Assembly (NCBI GenBank): GCA_002483395.1
Contig: DLHV01000107.1
Coordinates: forward strand, 7,102-12,440
Length of the DNA: 5,339 nt
Direction of reading: 5' to 3'
Source: Chloracidobacterium sp. UBA7659
GTDB taxonomy: Bacteria > Acidobacteriota > Blastocatellia > Pyrinomonadales > Pyrinomonadaceae
The notes under the pieces were generated by a model. The model saw only the letters and a list, made by a program, of their open reading frames with translations, ran no database searches and was not told where the DNA came from. Position 1 is the stretch's first letter. The number at the start of each line of letters is the position of its first letter. Below are positions 149 through 3,476 of this stretch, one piece after another. A program made the position numbers and the translations under genes.

Positions 149-354
149 ATTCGCTAATAGTAGAATACCAGAAATATCTGAACAGAATTCCCTGTTTTCA
201 AACTGGACCACTACAAAGCCGTGAAACTCTTGACACAACATTGCATCTATGCGACAATATTTCAGCCACGCATCTCGGTGCGGCCAGGGCAGGTCTTTGA
301 CAATTAGAGATTCGGACGCGAACAGATTTGCTCAGGTCGTGCGCAGGCTGGCAC
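149..354. other. Intergenic stretch without a credible gene
   Basis: No reading frame here looks like a protein. The only open frame that crosses it starts at a GTG at 49, runs through the hairpin repeats and has no recognisable domain. The one regulatory-looking element is the promoter candidate at 230-258. A small AACAG/CTGTT inverted repeat (181-185, 192-196) is too short to weigh. Confidence 0.5.
230..258 (+). promoter_or_regulatory. Candidate sigma-70-type promoter facing the tandem repeat units
   Basis: A perfect -35 hexamer TTGACA (230-235) is followed after a 17-bp spacer by GACAAT (253-258), which matches the -10 consensus at four of six positions. Transcription would start near 265 and read through the two covarying repeat units at 355-598. 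No gene follows on this strand until 1890, so if the promoter is real the product would be a non-coding RNA. Confidence is low because such a match can occur by chance. Confidence 0.3.
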
Positions 355-467
355 AAATCGTTCCATTAAGAAGCAGTGTTAAAACATAGTGGAACGATTT
401 TTCGCTGTAACCAGCATGGCTGCAATATTTAAGCCGTTCCACTTTCGACACCTAAGTGGAACGATTT
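355..467 (+). repeat. Repeat unit A: four alternating arms of CGTTCCA/TGGAACG
   Basis: The unit carries the arm core GTTCCA at 360-365 and 436-441 and its complement TGGAAC at 390-395 and 457-462. Arms one and two form an 11-bp perfect inverted repeat (355-365 with 390-400) that extends to 14 bp with one G-U pair. Arms three and four form a 10-bp hairpin (435-444 with 454-463) with a 9-nt loop. Arms one and four can also pair as an 11-bp terminal inverted repeat (355-365 with 457-467), so alternative folds exist. AGTGGAACGATTTTT occurs twice (388-402, 455-469), so both hairpins are followed by a T-run, like a terminator on the plus strand. The unit aligns along its whole length with unit B, sharing GCTGTAACC (404-412) and TTAAGC (429-434). 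Function is unknown. Confidence 0.8.
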
Positions 468-481
468 TTGGAAACCACGAC

Positions 482-598
482 TGTCTCACTTAAGAGTTTG
501 TGTAAAAACAAAATGAGACAATTTATGGCTGTAACCGATTGTAATTGGGAGACTTAAGCTGTCTCACTTTCAGCACTTCGTGACACTTAAGTGAGACA
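482..598 (+). repeat. Repeat unit B: four alternating arms of TGTCTCA/TGAGACA
   Basis: This is the homologue of unit A, beginning 14 bp after it. The arm core is GTCTCA at 483-488 and 561-566 and TGAGAC at 514-519 and 592-597. The outer arms form a 13-bp perfect terminal inverted repeat (482-494 with 586-598). The inner arms three and four form a 10-bp hairpin (560-569 with 589-598). Arms one and two pair over 7 bp plus two more after a mismatch. Shared landmarks with unit A in the same order are TTAAGA, AAAACA, GCTGTAACC (528-536), TTAAGC (554-559) and GACAC before the last arm. A further CACGAC/GTCGTG pair (476-481, 611-616) frames the unit. Relative to unit A every arm carries the same three substitutions, so all pairings are preserved. 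Confidence 0.8.
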
Positions 599-693
599 AT
601 TTCCCAAACTGTCGTGACTATGCAAAATGGCGAGACGGGACGAAACGGACGGGTGTTGATCCTAAATGTGCTCAGACCAATACCGAATTTATT
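599..693. other. Short intergenic stretch, nothing clear
   Basis: Between repeat unit B and the hairpin at 694-754 I see no gene, promoter or repeat that I can support. The open frame on the minus strand across 523-720 runs through repeat unit B and part of the hairpin and has no domain-like features. Confidence 0.4.
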
Positions 694-1776: not shown

Positions 1777-1803
1777 GTTGCAAGCGTGCAACTTAGTGTT
1801 GCA
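1777..1803 (+). promoter_or_regulatory. Candidate operator: three alternating TTGCA half-sites
   Basis: GTTGCA (1777-1782), TGCAAC (1787-1792) and GTTGCA (1798-1803) form direct and inverted half-sites with starts 10 and 11 bp apart, about one helical turn. The first two make a 6-bp inverted repeat around AGCG. A weaker fourth match, TGCAAT, lies at 1840-1845. The last full half-site overlaps the -35 element of the promoter for the XRE regulator, so binding there would block transcription. Autoregulation by the adjacent HTH protein is the natural inference. Confidence 0.5.
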
Positions 1804-1827
1804 TTCAAAAAAAAACTGTGTTATGTT
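1799..1827 (+). promoter_or_regulatory. Candidate promoter of the XRE regulator gene
   Basis: TTGCAT (1799-1804) and TATGTT (1822-1827) are separated by 17 bp, four of six matches to consensus in each hexamer. A run of nine A (1807-1815) lies in the spacer. Transcription would begin near 1834 and leave a leader of about 55 nt before the ATG at 1890, which carries AGGAGG at 1879-1884. The rest of the 290-bp divergent intergenic region (1600-1889) shows no convincing promoter for the VOC operon on the other strand. Confidence 0.5.
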
Positions 1828-1889
1828 TTATGTGTGAAATGCAATTAGCACCTATGACACTATGCAGATCATGGATGTAGGAGGAGAAT

Positions 1890-2285
1890 ATGGCATTTAA
1901 GTATGACAACTTTATTAACACCGTCGAACTCGGCCTGGCGATAAAACGCAGAAGGGAAGAGTTGGGCCTTAGCCTTAGGGATGTGGCGGACGTGACGAAC
2001 GTTTCTGCCTCGACACTTTCGCGTATCGAGAACGGGACCGGCAAGCCGGACGCCGACAACATTGCTCGGCTTACCGGCTGGCTTGACATGCCGATCGACC
2101 GCGTGATGAATAAACAGACCGTCAACGACGTCGAACCGGTGATCTATTATCCGCACGAAGCTACGCCTGAGATCGTCGCTGCACACCTGCGGGCCGATAA
2201 AAAGCTGACGCCGGAAACAGCCAAGGCTTTGTCGGAACTTTTCCGCGTCGCGTACAAGCAATTCAGTAAACCCGGCAAGAAATAA
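1890..2285 (+). CDS. XRE-family helix-turn-helix transcriptional regulator
   Basis: A 131-residue DNA-binding protein. Residues about 14-72 form a Cro/C1-type HTH: LGLAIKRRREELGLSLRDVA, then VTNVSASTLSRIENGTGKPDADNIARLTGWL with the recognition helix around STLSRIENG (41-49). The C-terminal part (about 90-125) is a predicted helical region with LRADKKLTPETAKALSELFRVAYKQF as its core. I recall similar tails in XRE regulators encoded next to ImmA/IrrE-type peptidases, but no such peptidase gene is here. The ATG at 1890 is preceded by AGGAGG five bases away. Half-sites over its promoter suggest negative autoregulation. It is followed 58 nt downstream by a small membrane protein on the same strand, a possible partner or target. 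A role in phage-type or stress control is speculative. Confidence 0.88.
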   Translation: MAFKYDNFINTVELGLAIKRRREELGLSLRDVADVTNVSASTLSRIENGTGKPDADNIARLTGWLDMPIDRVMNKQTVNDVEPVIYYPHEATPEIVAAHLRADKKLTPETAKALSELFRVAYKQFSKPGKK

Positions 2286-2850: not shown

Positions 2851-3078
2851 ATGACTAGTACACTAAAGCTGACGACAATCGGTAATTCTACGGGAGTAAT
2901 ATTACCAAAGGACATATTGGAAAAGCTTCGTGCTTCGAAAGGAGATACGATATTTGCGGTCGAAACACCAAATGGAATCGAACTCACACCTTACGACGCC
3001 AAATTCGCTCGGCAAATGGAGGTTGCGGAACGGGTAATGAGAAAACACCGTGACGTGCTTCGCAAACTCGCCGAGTGA
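2851..3078 (+). CDS. AbrB/MazE-type antitoxin
   Basis: A 75-residue protein with a SpoVT-AbrB swapped-hairpin DNA-binding domain in residues 3-46. The diagnostic run is LKLTTIGNSTGVILPKDILE (5-24), followed by GDTIFAVETPNGIELTP (31-47). The C-terminal helix (about 48-75, charged, KFARQMEVAERVMRKHRDVL) is the expected toxin-binding tail. Although the frame is open from 2773, the true start is the ATG at 2851: AGGAGG at 2841-2846 is 4 nt away, and the upstream part crosses the terminator and operator. It sits directly before a Doc-type toxin, with stop and start nearly overlapping, so it should neutralise that toxin and, together with it, repress the promoter. Base composition is more AT-rich than the flanking trp/aro genes, consistent with horizontal acquisition. 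Confidence 0.9.
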   Translation: MTSTLKLTTIGNSTGVILPKDILEKLRASKGDTIFAVETPNGIELTPYDAKFARQMEVAERVMRKHRDVLRKLAE

Positions 3079-3080
3079 TT

Positions 3081-3476
3081 ATGACATTTGAATGGATCGA
3101 ACCGAATGCAGTTTTGGCGATGCATAAACGCCAGATCGCTGAGCACGGCGGTACGGAGGGAGTGCGCGACGAAGGATTATTACTATCGGCTCTTGCCCGA
3201 CCGGAAAATCTGCATGCTTATGGGGAGGATGTTGACTTAGCGGCACTGGCCGCCAGTTACGCGTTCGGTATAGCGAAAAATCATCCTTTTTTGGATGGAA
3301 ATAAGAGAACGGCATTAGTTGTGGCCGTGGCGTTCCTCAATCTCAACGGATACGATTTCGAGGCGCCGGGAGAAGAGACCTATATTACATTTCTGCGGCT
3401 TGCAGAAGGCTCAATCACGGAAGAAAATCTTGCAGGCTGGTTTCGGGAAAGACTCTATTCATTGCCCGAAAACTAA
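3081..3476 (+). CDS. doc: Doc-type toxin (death-on-curing, Fic fold)
   Basis: A 131-residue protein of the Doc subgroup of the Fic fold. The catalytic motif is HPFLDGNKR at 68-76, with His68 as the expected base, Asp72, Asn74, and Lys75 in place of the Gly of canonical AMP-transferring Fic enzymes. In the P1 phage Doc protein this motif variant goes with phosphorylation of elongation factor EF-Tu and arrest of translation; that activity here is inference from family. Other typical parts are the HKRQIAEHGGTEGVRDEGLLLSAL opening helix-loop (15-38), the GIAKNHPF run-in, and the Gly-Tyr-x-Phe near 90-93. Length and motif look intact. The start is ATG at 3081, two bases after the antitoxin stop; a GTG at 3075 overlapping that stop is the alternative. 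No Shine-Dalgarno precedes either, so translation is probably coupled to the antitoxin. Confidence 0.9.
   Translation: MTFEWIEPNAVLAMHKRQIAEHGGTEGVRDEGLLLSALARPENLHAYGEDVDLAALAASYAFGIAKNHPFLDGNKRTALVVAVAFLNLNGYDFEAPGEETYITFLRLAEGSITEENLAGWFRERLYSLPEN

Follow-up and report, generated by a model that had tools for sequence, protein, structure and literature searches.

Some bacterial mobile elements carry short repeats, or a whole origin, immediately behind the gene of their replication protein. In Staphylococcus aureus pathogenicity islands (SaPIs) the C-terminal domain of Rep recognises short repeats directly downstream of its own gene, and Cch2 of the staphylococcal cassette chromosome (SCC) binds specifically to such downstream repeats, as passages of PMC7581432 report; excerpts of PMC6092414 place the origins of phage-inducible chromosomal islands immediately 3' of the initiator gene, with two iteron sets around an A+T-rich stretch, and those of PMC7433901 describe, for the integrative element Salmonella genomic island 1 (SGI1), an iteron origin (oriV) immediately downstream of rep. 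Here we analysed a window of 5,339 nt from Chloracidobacterium sp. UBA7659 (G000:C188:7102-12440, G000 being the window's own genome), which holds one copy of a dispersed element consisting of a leader, two tandem units with four copies of a 7-nt arm each, and a tail. Units of this kind also stand behind the gene of a predicted helicase, and the explanation that we favour, with reasonable but limited confidence, is that the scattered four-arm units are sites read by the helix-turn-helix (HTH) tail of this RepA/DnaB-like protein, the linked unit being origin-like and the other copies using the helicase in trans.

The initial annotation, made from the letters of the window, had offered two readings of the arms, namely that they form paired structure or that they are recognised by a partner with shifted specificity, and had proposed a search for neighbours specific to an arm class. 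A candidate for such a neighbour was found: the predicted helicase-HTH gene lies directly before a unit in 9 of the 9 genomes that carry it, the unit being located by a covariance model within about 100 nt downstream. This linkage, together with the intactness of arm classes and the flipped arms described below, supports the option of a reader. The class of the linked unit is mostly GTTCCA in G000, G011, G021 and G004, GTCTCA in G033, G006 and G008, and GTCCCA in G061, and is not clear in G030. At E<=1e-30 a phylum-wide search matched 9 of 297 sampled genomes, all in the window's genus; records with the linked gene in a public collection are Acidobacteria, Pyrinomonadaceae and Chloracidobacterium metagenome-assembled genomes, and the viral contigs scanned for helicase relatives yielded none by that scan.

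The gene's product is likely, judging from sequence and structural models, a RepA/DnaB-like RecA-fold ATPase with a C-terminal HTH and is our candidate reader of the arms. Its best matches are RecA-fold ring ATPases, in direct comparisons among which Cch2 does not figure; Foldseek puts KaiC first, and VIA-align ties RepA, T7 gp4, KaiC and DnaB. HTH_7/HTH_23 fall at residues 351-389 of the G011 protein, below Pfam cut-offs, the G021 protein has an HTH model above its cut-off, and the predicted structure shows three helices at 356-394 in a block with pLDDT (predicted local distance difference test) values of 75-93. In plasmid RSF1010 the iterons are bound by RepC, separate from the hexameric helicase RepA, whereas the protein described here has a predicted C-terminal HTH tail of its own. 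A recognition-helix code was considered and rejected: K/R-A-T is common to the three GTCTCA-class genes, but A-T also occurs in G018:C3 (TGTTCCG) and G060 (no cluster), and the cases are too few.

Copies of the element occur well beyond the gene, as the initial annotation's reading had presupposed. The window's own genome gave 13 further DNA matches at E<=1.6e-4 (best 7.6e-80) and 24 in all at E<=10, and a DNA search of 59 other genomes gave matches in four (G004, G011, G021 and G033). The covariance model, built from 29 units, matched 8 of 41 genus genomes at E<=0.01 (G000, 20 matches; G011, 37; G021, 46; G033, 24; G006, 21; G061, 9; G008, 3; G004, 3); since the search of the 41 genomes ran stricter filters that lose weak matches, no match in the other 33 means none at this threshold. 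The 13 own-genome matches and the covariance matches in the genus argue that the units are not products of chance. The 163 covariance matches include opposite-strand overlaps, and dropping the lower-scoring of these, together with the duplicates L064 and L174, left 126 distinct units that were read, the genome-wide matches of G006, G011, G021, G033, G061, G000, G008 and G004 being read in part and one of the 13 own-genome loci (L108) being left out. The copies sit mostly at differing places: among the nearest open reading frames (ORFs) of 82 arrays, two between-species pairs were strongly alike (68% and 61%) and one weakly (30%), and no unit was found within the 1.5-kb flanks of the orthologue of window gene 1171-1656 in any of 19 relatives. 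A role as leader of a downstream gene was rejected, the orientation to neighbours being even (18/18/18/13 of the 67 arrays with both neighbours found, out of 82 examined with a crude ORF caller that yields some spurious ORFs).

The arms of the 126 units are mostly YGTTCCA, YGTCTCA or YGTCCCA, and the claim that they change together stands for the majority, arms 2-4 being all of one class in 96 units. Independent variation, which had been named as evidence against concerted change, does occur, since the remaining 30 are mixed or drifted; these lie mainly in decaying classes, for 23 have a class unlike that of the unit next to the resident helicase gene and 7 share it. Taking the class of the unit adjoining the helicase gene as resident, and scoring intactness on arms 2-4, we found 72 of 79 units intact in the resident class compared with 24 of 47 in other classes (p 6e-7), a p-value that, like those that follow, is only a guide because the units are related copies. 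Resident against other, the counts were 13/13 and 2/10 in G033, 18/18 and 5/12 in G011, 4/7 and 2/8 in G000, and 1/1 and 1/1 in G004, while G006 (17/17), G008 (1/2) and G061 (3/5) have the resident class only. Assigning every unit to its nearest word left the counts unchanged (stratified p 1.9e-6; 8 of the 47 lacked a clear majority class), units with a clear majority gave 72/79 against 24/39 (p 2.5e-4), and removal of the linked units from the four multi-class genomes gave 47/50 against 23/46 (stratified p 1.8e-6). The TTCC units of G033 (L110, L111, L113, L114, L115, L168, L169, L171) have drifted repeatedly to CGTGCCA, most often in arm 3; this drift of a non-resident class is a possible intermediate of a specificity change.

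Set beside SaPI Rep and SCC Cch2, as far as the excerpts cited above portray them, the system has the same order of parts, a helicase gene with a C-terminal DNA-binding domain (here a predicted HTH) followed by short repeats; helicase ATPase domain, predicted DNA-binding domain and downstream repeats are shared features, the repeats being present in 9 of 9 close genes by model. It differs in its ATPase, which by sequence and model looks RecA-fold (RepA/DnaB-like), in its four-arm site, in having dozens of copies around the chromosome, many preceded by their own leader, and in an intact class that follows the resident gene in most genomes with several classes. SGI1 differs by its 17-bp direct iterons and another Rep, and dispersed chromosomal copies do not appear in the text of PMC7433901 examined. 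The initial annotation knew of no described element with this layout. Within open-licence full texts we recognised no paper describing the layout or the family, so for the four-arm arrangement the statement can be kept, but the logic of a gene with downstream repeats is already known from the SaPI and SCC passages; what is new is the dispersed copies with leaders.

More distant genes of the helicase family are followed by other words, often directly repeated at a spacing of about 9 bp: GTTTCA (G021:C3, G020, G010 and G031), TGTTCC (G002), TTCCGC (G018:C3), TGTAAA and GTTACA (two Bacteroidota genomes), and TGTCCC in a Butyricimonas plasmid and a phage-labelled faecal record. No TGTCCC was found behind the same kind of gene on a B. 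fragilis plasmid. A significant downstream word cluster (p<=0.02) is present in 17 of 37 family genes and an upstream one in 7 of 35, six of the latter belonging to a long-tailed subfamily (L202, L207, L210, L203, L209, L213) in which the cluster stands upstream of the gene rather than downstream. In a second ATPase lineage the gene is followed by TGTTTCA clusters, and dispersed clusters would be expected in genomes with that gene if it keeps its word there. Matches to a TGTTTCA cluster pattern numbered 51 in G031, 50 in G010, 71 in G020 and 50 in G021, where one cluster was already known before this test, against 7 in G033, 1 in G000 and none in the other 35 genomes (matches overlap, so clusters are fewer); the reversed pattern gave none in all genomes searched. 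Cluster matches were also obtained for TGTTCC (9 in G000) and TGTCCC (10 in G010 and 13 in G020). On two annotated Bacteroidales plasmids (L184 and L185) a helicase homologue is flanked by a DUF6371 gene on one side and a gene of excisionase or HTH type on the other; integrase and mobilization genes are also present, and the replication module of these plasmids is possibly the kind from which the family came.

Within the window, the features of the element are as follows.

196..680 (ends approximate), + strand: dispersed element of leader, two four-arm units and tail, from blastn among own-genome copies
230..258, + strand: sigma70-type promoter-like site TTGACA-17-GACAAT with TG one base before the second hexamer (extended -10), from the window sequence and the own-genome leader alignment
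241..254, + strand: operator-like TTGCATCTATGCGA between the two hexamers, a putative function
292..305, + strand: boxA-like GGTCTTTGACAATT, from counts of the pattern TTTGA[ACT]AA in arrays
354..471, + strand: unit A, arm class TTCC, shared with the unit behind the own-genome helicase gene; 105 bits by a covariance model whose training set included it
359..365, + strand: unit A arm 1, CGTTCCA, window sequence
390..396, - strand: unit A arm 2, TGGAACG, window sequence
435..441, + strand: unit A arm 3, CGTTCCA, window sequence
457..463, - strand: unit A arm 4, TGGAACG, window sequence
477..606, + strand: unit B, arm class TCTC; 100.6 bits by the same model, likewise trained on it
482..488, + strand: unit B arm 1, TGTCTCA, window sequence
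514..520, - strand: unit B arm 2, TGAGACA, window sequence
560..566, + strand: unit B arm 3, TGTCTCA, window sequence
592..598, - strand: unit B arm 4, TGAGACA, window sequence

The two units first seen at 355-598 are present as described, but the element is longer, about 196-680, likeness among own-genome copies reaching up to 158 nt upstream and up to 74 nt downstream of the array (blastn). Units A and B align (repeat family D1, 74% over 47 nt; inverted pairs I3, I4 and I9), and the window sequence bears out four arms per unit and twelve coordinated changes, each of the three differing positions being altered in all four copies. The distinction from clustered regularly interspaced short palindromic repeats (CRISPR) was also correct: the orientation of the arms alternates, and what lies between them is homologous from one unit to the other, unlike unique spacers.

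The leaders add a further layer. Those of four-arm arrays align within G000, G006 and G033 and less well in G021, and have in common a TTGACA-type promoter, TTGCAT/GTTGC boxes and a boxA-like stretch; G011 leaders could not be aligned with each other by blastn, and like motifs were read there by eye. Promoter-like sites of the same kind as that at 230-258 stand in leaders of other species, and TTGCAT/ATGCAA-like words recur in several. The pattern TTTGA[ACT]AA occurs upstream of 48 of 77 arrays, downstream of 1 and upstream in antisense in 5, in a count that left out ten helicase-linked loci, L064, both-strand loci and loci with less than 150 nt upstream. The rRNA leaders of G011 and G033 carry GTTGATATTTGAAAACTAA before 16S, and the element's box is therefore of the genus's own boxA type, a comparison that rests on two genomes because 16S was found in 2 of 8. 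A strict promoter pattern was met upstream of 14 of 77 four-arm arrays, downstream of 2 and in antisense in 4, so that the term promoter rests more on the leader alignments. TGTTTCA clusters have a strong promoter-like site upstream in 9 of 23 cases, downstream in 1 and in antisense in 1, and the boxA-like pattern was absent from the three TGTTTCA loci looked at. Because the leaders carry promoter-like and genus-type boxA-like sequence, the array is probably transcribed. CRISPR arrays with boxA leaders likewise have a promoter and a boxA ahead of their repeats; here, by contrast, there is no pattern of direct repeat and spacer, the arms mostly alternate, and an array has one to three units only. 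Elsewhere in the window (1790-2285, + strand) TTGCAAGCGTGCAAC and TTGCAT words resembling those of the element's promoters stand ahead of a gene at 1890-2285 that by eye encodes an XRE-like HTH protein, which could be the regulator of these promoters.

Such leaders are what one would expect if the array were a structured non-coding RNA, made from a regulated rRNA-type promoter with boxA antitermination, whose arms are RNA stems and whose arm changes are compensatory. We regard this as unlikely, although several observations suit it besides the promoter-like sites and a boxA that agrees with rRNA leaders in two relatives. Each unit folds better than its shuffles (z -5.3/-3.0 on the + strand and -4.4/-4.5 on the - strand), and among 29 aligned units 95% of arm cells pair (shuffles mean 88.6%, 0 of 500 as high) with a covariation score of 0.295 compared with 0.174 in shuffles. 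The proposed test for covariation came out divided, however, as pairs changed on both sides (6 vs 5.6) and further pair types (10 vs 13.9) were not above shuffles. Four of the eight pairs in each helix are invariant, as a word under recognition should be; the exceptions counted among the seven core pairs were seven C·A and three G·U, G·U or loss of pairing being common at the eighth, outermost pair. Arm 1 was scored by script (direct meaning within one mismatch) as inverted in 101 of the 126 units, direct in 12, neither in 12 and both in 1; two of the direct cases (G000) are ambiguous by eye, which leaves ten, eight in G011 and two in G004, in which the word is retained and the pair lost. Recognition of the word is therefore favoured, and a reading by base pairing alone is weakened by the flipped arms and the C·A exceptions. 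Related genes moreover carry direct, unpairable repeats of their word, and an Rfam search of the window found no family at the array (at E<=1 the window gave a single match, sub-threshold and away from the array). The structure option of the initial annotation thus keeps the pairing seen in most units and the leader motifs, but pairing leaves the flips unexplained.

It is less probable still that the element is a repeat moved by a transposase, resembling repetitive extragenic palindromes (REPs), their REPIN doublets or miniature inverted-repeat transposable elements, with the helicase linkage secondary. The dispersal of dozens of copies, among which just two strong neighbour pairs are shared between species, the lack of a counterpart to the window copy at the orthologous gene in 19 relatives and a sequence (L032) lying some 350-520 nt upstream of the helicase gene in the window's own genome that by eye looks like the tail of a REP-associated Y1 transposase, and is followed by palindromes of another kind, would all suit it. 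REPINs and their transposases (RAYTs), as presented in parts of PMC3116915 and PMC8049555, share with our system a single gene that maintains short dispersed palindromic copies in trans. The gene adjoining the unit, however, is a helicase in 9 of 9 cases and not a Y1 transposase, no search having been aimed at transposases that track the copies, and four-arm units and leaders set our system apart as well. Inspection by eye of the ends of 19 copies from G006 and G033 revealed no terminal inverted repeats, and the arm-to-arm gaps of 15-39 nt in the window's units misfit the short-looped hairpin of 20-40 bp expected of a REP, for which excerpts of PMC3733652 give loops of 4-5 nt (CGTC) and 2-20 nt (GTAG). 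Gene conversion or hairpin-templated repair that keeps the arms alike without a reader is very improbable, for although it would suit hybrid units in which each hairpin is uniform and the two are unlike (L139), it should act on all classes alike, whereas intactness follows the resident class in G033 and G011, and it does not predict the dispersal of TGTTTCA.

Under reading by the helicase, each arm would be a DNA site for the HTH tail, and a single protein reading all four would explain why they change together. On the model of SaPI Rep and SCC Cch2, the linked unit may be an origin-like loading site, at which several HTH tails on the arms would allow the ring ATPase to form and the A+T-rich spacers to open. 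Dispersed copies, each a leader with one to three units, would be non-autonomous versions of the site onto which the same helicase is loaded in trans, and transcription through them may open or prime the DNA. The linkage of gene and unit, the dispersal, the arm classes, the bias in intactness and the motifs of the leaders are seen in the sequences; binding, loading, strand opening, replication and spread are steps that we infer. When the specificity of the helicase shifts, units with the new word would be kept and those with the old word would drift. More tentatively, and with rather less confidence, we suggest that one chromosomal helicase gene, present in single copy, maintains dozens of origin-like, non-autonomous copies of its loading site, a REPIN-like society with a self-loading replicative helicase in place of a transposase, in which each copy would be a promoter-driven strand-opening site and specificity and word would switch together. 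If so, bacterial chromosomes can hold tens of loading sites for a non-DnaB helicase, put there by a replication module that is selfish or domesticated; the arm classes and HTH variants would be natural protein-site pairs whose recognition code is directly testable, and repeat units whose 'covarying' arms could pass for RNA structure would have an account in terms of DNA reading.

Several results weigh against this explanation. The intactness signal comes from G033 and G011 and weakly from G000, G021 shows no bias (resident 15/16, other 14/16), and no helicase for GTCTCA or GTCCCA was found in G021; the resident class is itself taken from the unit beside the gene, and the units are copies of each other. 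By the exact-word test 20 of 37 family genes, including 4 of the 9 close ones, are without a significant downstream cluster. G033 has its seven TGTTTCA matches, yet no gene followed by that word was found in this genome, and G002, G014 and G018, which carry another helicase lineage, have no dispersed clusters of the two words tested; the rule that a gene keeps its word is thus not universal. The leader motifs, finally, suggest a role for the transcript, whereas a model of DNA sites alone requires none.

Two further observations concern the rest of the window. Positions 1-160 contain a second repeat, inverted CTGTTTGTAG/CTACAAACAG with CGCTCCTATCGGAGC-like words, which by eye is also present in G011 flanks (L120 and L057). 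At 2851-3476 on the + strand, an AbrB/MazE-like gene is followed by a Doc/Fic-like gene, a pair that by eye, from the ORF list, has the look of a toxin-antitoxin system.
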